Source of the DNA: Dacryopinax spathularia
Lineage: Eukaryota; Basidiomycota; Dacrymycetes; Dacrymycetales; Dacrymycetaceae
NCBI GenBank assembly: GCA_037974965.1
Contig: JBBPFI010000004.1
Coordinates: 1,302,001-1,366,000, forward strand
Reading direction: 5' to 3'
Length of the DNA stretch: 64,000 bases
Part shown: piece after piece, positions 11,434 through 13,956 of the stretch
Position numbering within the stretch: the stretch's first letter is position 1
Layout: every line of letters begins with the position of its first letter
Translations under genes and position numbers: made by a program
The notes under the pieces: model-generated
Database searches by the model: none
Seen by the model: the letters and a program-made list of their open reading frames with translations, nothing else
Told to the model about the DNA's origin: nothing

Positions 11434-12249
11434 TCAGTTGATCTTGAGGAGCTCGACCTCGAACTTTAGGGTCGCGTTGGGAGGGATGACACCGCCCACG
11501 CCACGGGCGCCGTAGGCCTGAGAACGGCGTAAGTAACAATTCACATGGATAATGATACCCCACAAAGGGATAAGAAGCAAAGCACATACGTAGTCAGGCG
11601 AGCAGATAAGGACCGCCTTCTGGCCGAGCGAGAGCTGAGGAACACCCTCGTCCCAGCCGCGGATGACCTGGCCGACGCCGATCTTGGTCTGGAAGGGCTT
11701 GCCGCGGTCGCGCGACGAGTCGAACTTGGTGCCGTCGAGGAGCGTGCCTGGCGCGAAGGGTCAGTCTGGGAGCAATAGGGACGCGAAAGGAAAGTGCATA
11801 CCGGTGTAGTGCATCGTCACGCTGGCGAGAGCGTAAGGGTCAGCATATGCGCGAAGCTAGGCCGGGTTCTGTGAATACTCACGTCTGTGACGAAGGTCAG
11901 TCTCAGGTCCGAACAGGAGAGCGAGGCGAAGAACTCACGTCTGTGATTCAGAAACGCGCAGGGAGAGCGCCAGCATGATGAGTTCCAGAACACTGGGATA
12001 CGGGTAGCTTGGGGAACTTACCGCCCTGCTTGGGGAAAGTCTGCGCGTGGCATACATGGTCAGCACCAAGAACCCGTCAAGAGCCTTTGAAGCTGGACGT
12101 ACCTTGCCGTCACCGGGAGAGATGGTCTGAACTTCGACACCCATTCTTGCAGGAGATGATGAGAAAGAGCGAGTGTAAAGTGGTTGTATGCGCGAGGTGG
12201 TGGTAGATCGAAGGGATGAGCGAGTGGACAAGAGGAGTCGTGCAGCCAT
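11434..12249 (-). CDS. FPR1: FKBP12 peptidyl-prolyl isomerase, copy A, with optional mitochondrial presequence and two 2-nt microexons
   Basis: Exons read 12249-12103, 12040-12022, 11940-11939, 11884-11883, 11821-11802, 11747-11590 and 11517-11434. From the inner ATG at 12144 this gives exactly 108 aa, the standard FKBP12 length; from 12249 it gives 143 aa. FK506/rapamycin pocket residues are present (Y of [37 protein letters not shown]). The enzyme isomerises Xaa-Pro bonds and is the receptor for FK506 and rapamycin. The 35-residue N-terminal extension is Arg/Ser rich, lacks acidic residues and ends RSFSSSPAR, as in mitochondrial presequences, so alternative starts could give mitochondrial and cytosolic forms. 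The two microexons supply the Asp-Thr codons of the GDTVTMHYTG strand. A competing single-intron model (donor GTTCCC at 12017) would give Gly-Asn instead but uses a poor donor. A second copy follows at 13327. Confidence 0.9.
11883..11884 (-). other. 2-nt microexon (AC) of FKBP copy A, second of two
   Basis: Minus strand ...CGTCACAG|AC|GTGAGT. AC plus C from the next exon gives ACC (Thr). Without it the frame of the next exon is lost. The paralog has no intron here. Confidence 0.6.
11939..11940 (-). other. 2-nt microexon (AC) of FKBP copy A, first of two
   Basis: On the minus strand the bases read ...GAATCACAG|AC|GTGAGT. AC completes a Gly-Asp junction (G from exon 2 + AC = GAC). The position and the Asp codon match the microexon of the paralog at 13756-13757. 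Confidence 0.7.
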
Positions 12250-13326: not shown

Positions 13327-13956
13327 TCACTGGATCTTGAGGAGCTCGACCTCAAAGATGAGGGTCGCGCCAGGAGGGATGACAGGGGGATAGCCGCGAT
13401 CGGCATAGGCCTGAGCGTGGAGCATCAGTAAGATAATGTCCTGTCATCAGAAATAAAAAGAGCCTACATAATCAGGAGTGATCGTCAAGATCGCCTTCTG
13501 GCCTAGGGAGAGCTGGGGCACTCCCTCATCCCAGCCACGGATGACCTTGCCCTCCCCGATCTCGACCTCGAAAGGAAGGCGACGATCGCGCGACGAATCG
13601 AATACCTTGCCATCAGTCAGAGTGCCTAGGCCCAAGCATCAGCAGCTGACTATGGAGCATCAGAAGTAAGTACATACCAACATAGTGAAGCGTGACTTTC
13701 TGAAAAGATAAATCGACATCAGCGCGGAGTCTGGCGCCATAGTCTAGCCACTTACATCTGATGTTGACACAGAAAGAGACGACAAATATACATGTCAGCA
13801 TTACATAGACAATAATGGTACGGGCGAATACTAACCGCCCTTCTTGGGAAAAGTCTGGACGCAAAGGCCCAGGTCAGAGGTGTTATGGCCAGACCAGAAG
13901 AAGACTAAGCTTACCTTGCCGTCGCCTGGGGAAAGAGTCTGGATAGTGACACCCAT
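13327..13956 (-). CDS. FKBP12 peptidyl-prolyl isomerase, copy B, with one 2-nt microexon
   Basis: Exons 13956-13915, 13854-13836, 13757-13756, 13699-13678, 13625-13468 and 13410-13327 encode exactly 108 aa ([14 protein letters not shown] at the start, FEVELLKIQ at the end). Exon sizes 42, 19, 2, 22, 158 and 84 match those of copy A, except that copy A splits the 22-nt exon into 2+20. Pocket residues are kept ([31 protein letters not shown]), but several surface residues differ (KVF for [15 protein letters not shown]), so it may bind other partners. Unlike copy A it has no in-frame upstream presequence. A TATATAA lies about 120 bp upstream. It is a tandem duplicate in the same direction. After the TGA the frame stays open for 62 codons. 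Confidence 0.9.
13756..13757 (-). other. 2-nt microexon (AT) of FKBP copy B
   Basis: Minus strand ...TCAACATCAG|AT|GTAAGT. G from exon 2 plus AT gives GAT (Asp), followed by AAA GTC ACG. Exon 2 ends in phase 1 and the next exon starts in phase 0 after a strong TTTTCAG, so two extra bases are needed. Confidence 0.75.

Follow-up and report, generated by a model that had tools for sequence, protein, structure and literature searches.

Two consecutive 2-nt microexons predicted in an FKBP12 gene of Dacryopinax spathularia, the first with a counterpart in the tandem paralogue

Two FKBP12-type genes lie in tandem on the minus strand of the analysed window, a stretch of 64,000 nt of the Dacryopinax spathularia genome (G000:C4:1302001-1366000; assembly of 29.2 Mb in 24 contigs), and one of them, copy A, very probably carries a genuine pair of consecutive 2-nt exons, recognised by ordinary short-intron recognition and probably spliced stepwise; the splicing, its order, the constitutive use of the exons and their age are here read from DNA sequence. 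It is also likely, if held a little less firmly, that the first of these exons persisted through a gene duplication after which the introns lost every detectable resemblance, and that exon size has practically no lower bound where this lineage recognises short introns, a recognition that could act three times in succession within four exonic bases.

Copy A (12144-11434, ATG at 12144) has seven exons of 42, 19, 2, 2, 20, 158 and 84 nt, encoding 108 aa, and six introns of 62, 81, 54, 61, 54 and 72 nt, every one GT..AG. Copy B (13956-13327, ATG at 13956) likewise encodes 108 aa, in six exons of 42, 19, 2, 22, 158 and 84 nt separated by introns of 60, 78, 56, 52 and 57 nt. The exon lengths 42, 19, 2, 22 (2 + 20 in copy A), 158 and 84 are thus common to both genes, whose structures are alike except for the one intron that divides the 22-nt exon of copy B into the 2-nt and 20-nt exons of copy A. 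In the two genes together six introns are undisputed, and these measure 52-72 nt. A single FKBP_C domain (PF00254) is found over residues 13-105 of both proteins (123.3 bits in copy A, 118.7 bits in copy B), occupying nearly the entire protein of about 108 aa as in FKBP12, the FKBP1A-type peptidyl-prolyl isomerase, and PDB matches to the copy A protein span residues 1-108 (e.g. 6vct_A). Exons 2 to 5 of copy A (11802-12040, minus strand), of 19, 2, 2 and 20 nt, form a run of four consecutive microexons totalling 43 coding bases, with five introns flanking and dividing them. The features of both genes, as modelled, are as follows.

12145..12249, minus strand: copy A upstream in-frame extension, 35 codons, open frame
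12103..12144, minus strand: copy A exon 1, 42 nt, inner ATG at 12144
12041..12102, minus strand: copy A intron 1, 62 nt, GTACGT..CAG
12022..12040, minus strand: copy A exon 2, 19 nt, TFPKQG and base 1 of the Asp codon
11941..12021, minus strand: copy A intron 2, 81 nt, GTAAGT..CAG, CTGAA near the acceptor
11939..11940, minus strand: copy A microexon 1, AC, completing GAC (Asp21)
11885..11938, minus strand: copy A intron 3, 54 nt, GTGAGT..CTGAC..CAG
11883..11884, minus strand: copy A microexon 2, AC, bases 1-2 of ACC (Thr22)
11822..11882, minus strand: copy A intron 4, 61 nt, GTGAGT..CTGAC..CAG
11802..11821, minus strand: copy A exon 5, 20 nt, begins C GTG ACG
11590..11747, minus strand: copy A exon 6, 158 nt
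11434..11517, minus strand: copy A exon 7, 84 nt including the stop
13915..13956, minus strand: copy B exon 1, 42 nt
13836..13854, minus strand: copy B exon 2, 19 nt, TFPKKG then G
13758..13835, minus strand: copy B intron 2, 78 nt, GTTAGT..CAG
13756..13757, minus strand: copy B microexon, AT, completing GAT (Asp21), in the same place as copy A microexon 1
13700..13755, minus strand: copy B intron 3, 56 nt, GTAAGT..CTGAT..CAG
13678..13699, minus strand: copy B exon 4, 22 nt, equal to copy A microexon 2 (2 nt) plus copy A exon 5 (20 nt)
13468..13625, minus strand: copy B exon 5, 158 nt
13327..13410, minus strand: copy B exon 6, 84 nt including the stop

The double microexon had been proposed in a first-pass annotation of this DNA, and all the sites it named are present: exon 2 of copy A ends GGGCG/GTAAGT (slashes mark splice boundaries) with the donor at 12021, CACAG/AC/GTGAGT is found at both 11940-11939 and 11884-11883, and exon 5 begins at 11821 in GCCAG/CGTGACG. 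Use of both AC exons gives a spliced coding sequence of seven exons and, as that annotation had it, 108 aa, and the loss of frame that it foresaw otherwise does occur, inclusion of neither leading to a stop after 21 aa and inclusion of only one to a frameshifted product of 78 aa. Absent from it was the 2-nt exon of copy B, at the position homologous to microexon 1 of copy A; the residues at the junction are G-D-T-V in copy A and G-D-K-V in copy B (GAT, then AAA for Lys). Microexon 1 has its strongest independent, and direct, support in this exon; microexon 2 has no direct support from it. All three are predicted ultra-small microexons in that AG and GT stand 2 bases apart (CAG/AC/GTGAGT twice in copy A, CAG/AT/GTAAGT in copy B) and inclusion of those bases is required for the reading frame and the conserved protein. 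Skipping the copy B microexon leaves 31 residues, and retention of intron 2, 3 or 4 of copy A truncates the product, so that faithful microexon inclusion would be needed for each copy to make FKBP12.

We enumerated the splice chains that could bridge the gap in each gene, with the outer exons fixed, one to three GT..AG introns of 40-260 nt and internal exons of up to 60 nt. Copy A yields 25 chains that are in frame without a stop, just two of which give the canonical protein length: the double microexon (introns of 81, 54 and 61 nt; GDTV) and a single 196-nt intron (12017-11822, donor GTTCCC; Gly-Gly-Asn-Val), the frame-keeping rival already recognised in the first-pass annotation. The double microexon, one of these two solutions, has the better donor match, first junction residue and Pfam score. 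Of the four in-frame chains in copy B two are of canonical length, and each of these places an exon in the gap: one has the 2-nt AT between good sites, the other the 6-nt ATGTAA and relies on donor GTGGCT and acceptor AAG; the enumeration finds no single GT..AG intron that solves this gap. Allowing introns down to 25 nt adds no chains in either copy. With GC donors allowed there are six canonical-length chains per copy, including a G-D-Y-V in copy B, and with AT donors and AC acceptors (up to two introns) there are eight in copy A, two of them a plausible G-E-T-V, and ten in copy B, where one chain reads G-D-V-F and another is a second G-D-K-V, again with a 2-nt exon, here preceded by a GAC acceptor; each chain added by these wider rules uses at least one rare boundary type. 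Excision of one contiguous block, the outcome common to single introns, to stwintrons and to recursive splicing that retains nothing, was tested for 19 canonical-length blocks per copy with any boundaries accepted. None of the 19 in copy A gives Asp21, and 12017-11822 is the sole GT..AG block, while in copy B none is GT..AG, two types of block with non-splice boundaries giving a plausible G-Q-K-V or G-E-K-V. Together these results mean that copy B, if its introns follow GT-AG rules, must retain a small exon, and that copy A can avoid one only through the poor GTTCCC donor.

Residues 21 and 22, where the two solutions for copy A differ, were compared with homologues, which also served as length markers: 32 bacterial loci on genome contigs and 11 loci on viral contigs (one viral-contig scan gave no matches, another the 11); neither the genome-contig nor the viral-contig matches include a fungal FKBP12 locus. 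In the 25 bacterial alignments (of 32) that cover the site, 18 of them from related actinobacteria, residue 21 is Asp 24 times and Gln once, and residue 22 is Thr 13 times. The nine viral-contig homologues (of 11) covering the site have Ser (4), Gln (3), Asp (1) and Asn (1) at position 21, with Thr in five and Asn in one at position 22. Matching PDB sequences number 163; in the best five alignments residue 21 is Asp four times and Gln once, and residue 22 is Glu twice and Lys, Thr and Asn once each (Asn in 6tz8).

Splice-site quality was scored as matches to CAGGTRAGT over nine positions for 12 donors. Introns 2, 3 and 4 of copy A each have 7/9, the remaining eight donors of the two genes 5 to 7 of 9, and the GTTCCC donor 3/9, the lowest of the 12. 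The consensus branch motif is CTRAY. A CTGAC lies 12 nt from the acceptor in intron 3 of copy A and 18 nt from it in intron 4; intron 2 is less favourable in both genes, copy A having no CTRAY in range and copy B its nearest one 37 nt from the acceptor, and both points count against the microexon model. A strict-motif scan for introns of 45-90 nt over 264 kb (the window and C1:100001-300000) returned 111 candidates versus 32, 29 and 40 in three simulations, and 84 of these candidates fall at 47-64 nt; as the scan was limited to 45-90 nt, intron length is weak evidence against a 196-nt intron. Such short introns with CTRAY-like branch motifs, together with the FKBP sequence and the genome size, point to a fungus, probably a basidiomycete; a PF00141 peroxidase gene was also matched, in two exons.

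The single 196-nt intron, with both AC/GTGAGT sites as decoys, is the main alternative for copy A. It keeps the frame and the canonical length and uses the same acceptor, its product still matches FKBP_C, at 118.1 bits compared with 123.3 for the double-microexon protein, and the Asn it places at position 22 is present in some homologues (2 of 39, one viral-contig and one PDB). We nevertheless judge it unlikely. Its donor is the weakest of those scored and sits 4 nt inside a strong GTAAGT donor, the Gly it requires at position 21 occurs in none of 39 homologues (0/25 bacterial, 0/9 viral-contig, 0/5 PDB), its 196 nt compare with the 52-72 nt of the six undisputed introns, and it leaves the copy B microexon unexplained. 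Still more improbable, we consider, is that copy A is decaying or mis-assembled and both AC sites are there by chance: a tandem duplicate could indeed cover for its loss, but copy A keeps a full 108-aa frame over seven exons, dN/dS between the copies is near 0.25, the chance estimates given below are low and the structure of copy B matches.

The several donor and acceptor pairs packed into one 200-nt block also recall stwintrons, described in fungi (PMC5639578), and recursive splicing at zero-nucleotide sites, by either of which the block would be a compound intron removed in steps with nothing retained. A zero-nucleotide recursive site, as described in PMC13149111, is an AG/GT in a long intron from which no base is retained, whereas here two bases needed for the frame separate AG from GT and the introns are 54-81 nt. 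In a stwintron a splice signal is interrupted by an internal intron; no intron of our model interrupts the donor or acceptor of another. Either scheme deletes one contiguous block, so the excision results above bear on both: no block in either copy gives the Asp, in copy A GT..AG is found only with GTTCCC, and in copy B none of the 19 is GT..AG, even if blocks without splice boundaries could give G-Q-K-V or G-E-K-V. We regard this explanation as extremely improbable. The double-microexon model predicts the copy A junction to read GGCGACACCGTG (also GGGCGACACCGTGACG), the 196-nt intron predicts GGCGGTAACGTG (also GGGCGGTAACGTGACG), and for copy B (13854-13678) the single-microexon model predicts GGCGATAAAGTC (also GGGCGATAAAGTCACG). 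A cDNA containing GGCGACACC would be at odds both with the GTTCCC donor and with a stwintron or zero-nucleotide scheme.

The microexon arrangement of copy A is more than chance. For each estimate 4000 Markov gaps of the right length were simulated with the outer donor and acceptor fixed, and searched for chains with introns of 45-120 nt, exons of up to 6 nt and YAG acceptors, no branch site being demanded. Any chain with four exonic bases arose in the copy A gap in 9/4000 cases with GTRNGT donors and 81/4000 with GTNNGN, falling to 0/4000 and 5/4000 once a plausible residue pair ([DEQN] then [TKSRVEQ]) was required; the corresponding values for the copy B gap are 5 or 59/4000 and, with the residue demand, 1 or 21/4000. 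A rule-based survey of the same 264 kb found three intron-2nt-intron arrangements against a simulated mean of 0.2, and seven gaps of 1-6 nt against 2.6. Two of the three are the copy A pair; the third (C1:138131) we read as spurious, probably lying inside an ordinary 23-nt exon. The survey missed copy B because its first donor is GTTAGT.

Copies A and B are identical at 80 of 109 codons (stop included), and a dN of 0.225 against a dS of 0.886 points to purifying selection on the coding sequence of both. No such likeness is left in their introns: the five homologous pairs show no more similarity than shuffled sequence (fractions 0.126 to 0.982), and the same holds for four other intron pairs. 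The AG-2nt-GT arrangement is nonetheless kept in both copies, and microexon 1 would therefore predate the tandem duplication, unless it arose twice. Intron 4 of copy A, which creates microexon 2, was either gained in copy A or lost in copy B. An origin of microexon 2 by tandem duplication within the gene is not supported, introns 3 and 4 of copy A being no more alike than shuffles (fraction 0.606). RNA folding of the copy A block, run without a null, singled out no structure.

In the mechanism we propose copy A would be a functional FKBP12 gene, the codons for Asp21 and Thr22 being cut by three short GT-AG introns, and its mature mRNA would keep both 2-nt exons, AC and AC. The introns of 81, 54 and 61 nt would each be recognised as a unit across the intron, and as each has its own donor and acceptor such recognition could suffice, with no need for exon definition. 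U1 pairing covers donor positions -3 to +6. U1 bound at the donor downstream of a 2-nt exon would thus reach, over -3 to -1, the G of the upstream acceptor AG, which suggests stepwise removal. The introns flanking one 2-nt exon would probably leave in turn; the simplest course would be cotranscriptional removal in 5' to 3' order, the exon after every joining step being longer and still carrying an intact donor. The donor context becomes GAC/GTGAGT once intron 2 is out and CAC/GTGAGT once intron 3 is out, both still usable. Of the ordered or recursive intron-defined splicing suggested earlier, the intron-defined part fits and an order is probable, while recursion is not needed, the introns being complete.

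Ultra-small exons are known. The earlier view held exons of 1-2 nt to be extremely rare and cited Arabidopsis APC11; such exons are less isolated than was thought, as 1-nt exons are also published for plant VPS55 (PMC8831610) and Fusarium CYP621A (PMC12940212). The 1-nt exon of APC11, established by cDNA and reporter constructs and constitutive (PMC4674806), is like those of copy A too small for exon definition and needed for the frame; it is however a single exon of 1 nt in a plant, while here two of 2 nt stand in a row and are predicted from DNA. CYP621A, whose 1-nt exon is supported by 18 SRA reads and claimed by its authors as the first for a fungal gene, is closer in being fungal, in having its tiny exon in a conserved motif, in using an intronless homologue as length marker and in solving a phase-1 to phase-2 mismatch by the tiny exon, and differs in that the exon is single, of 1 nt and read-supported (PMC12940212). 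Adjacent exons of 5 and 12 nt are described for a rice gene (PMC8831610) and for a Peptidase M1 gene of Zygnema (PMC11096116); these too are a pair of neighbouring microexons, and the ultra-small exons, that of VPS55 included, are conserved across species, but the pair totals 17 nt, in contrast to 4 nt for the copy A pair, both members of which are below 3 nt. Fungal stwintrons share with copy A the packing of short introns in one gene and stepwise removal, the latter here only probable, and differ in leaving no exon bases between introns, one of which interrupts a splice signal, where copy A has complete introns and 2 nt retained (PMC5639578). PMC12940212 cites Arabidopsis, Drosophila and human exons of 2-5 bp, which means that single 2-nt exons may have been recorded before. 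Exons down to 6 bp are described in P450 genes of Phanerochaete (PMC1184071), and FRR1 of Cryptococcus is described as having introns and exons (PMC12810828). Two consecutive 2-nt exons appear in none of the titles and abstract openings among the matches listed, mostly non-subscription literature, and a consecutive 2-nt pair with one member common to paralogues was not found in the literature searched, against which the copy A pair would be the smallest adjacent one.

The copy A block offers a natural substrate for asking how adjacent donors and acceptors are used in order when simultaneous occupancy is barely feasible, with copy B as a built-in control having one microexon instead of two. Annotation misses such exons, and FKBP12 models of the copy A or copy B kind are likely to be misannotated: the plant 1-nt exons are described as absent from reference annotations (PMC8831610), and of the Fusarium transcripts derived from gene models only one is described as not wrong at the 1-nt exon site (PMC12940212). 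If orthologues share the structure, the tiny exons would be old and tolerated and not accidents.

Upstream of the copy A start an in-frame ATG at 12249 opens a basic, Ser/Arg-rich extension of 35 residues (12145-12249, minus strand); in copy B an in-frame stop lies close upstream of the start, where copy A has the extension. The composition resembles a mitochondrial presequence and would suggest targeting to that organelle, and copy A may provide mitochondrial and cytosolic FKBP12 from two start codons of one gene. Neurospora offers a parallel.

Among the bacterial matches, loci L009-L025 and L037 (Frankia, Protofrankia, Streptomyces and Spongiactinospora) are uninterrupted FKBP12-like genes with 67-79% identity to the spliced copy A protein over residues 1-107 or 1-108, a close match for bacteria that may reflect transfer between fungi and actinobacteria. 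The IMG/VR viral contigs L063-L066 encode FKBP-type proteins with 50-53% identity to the query.
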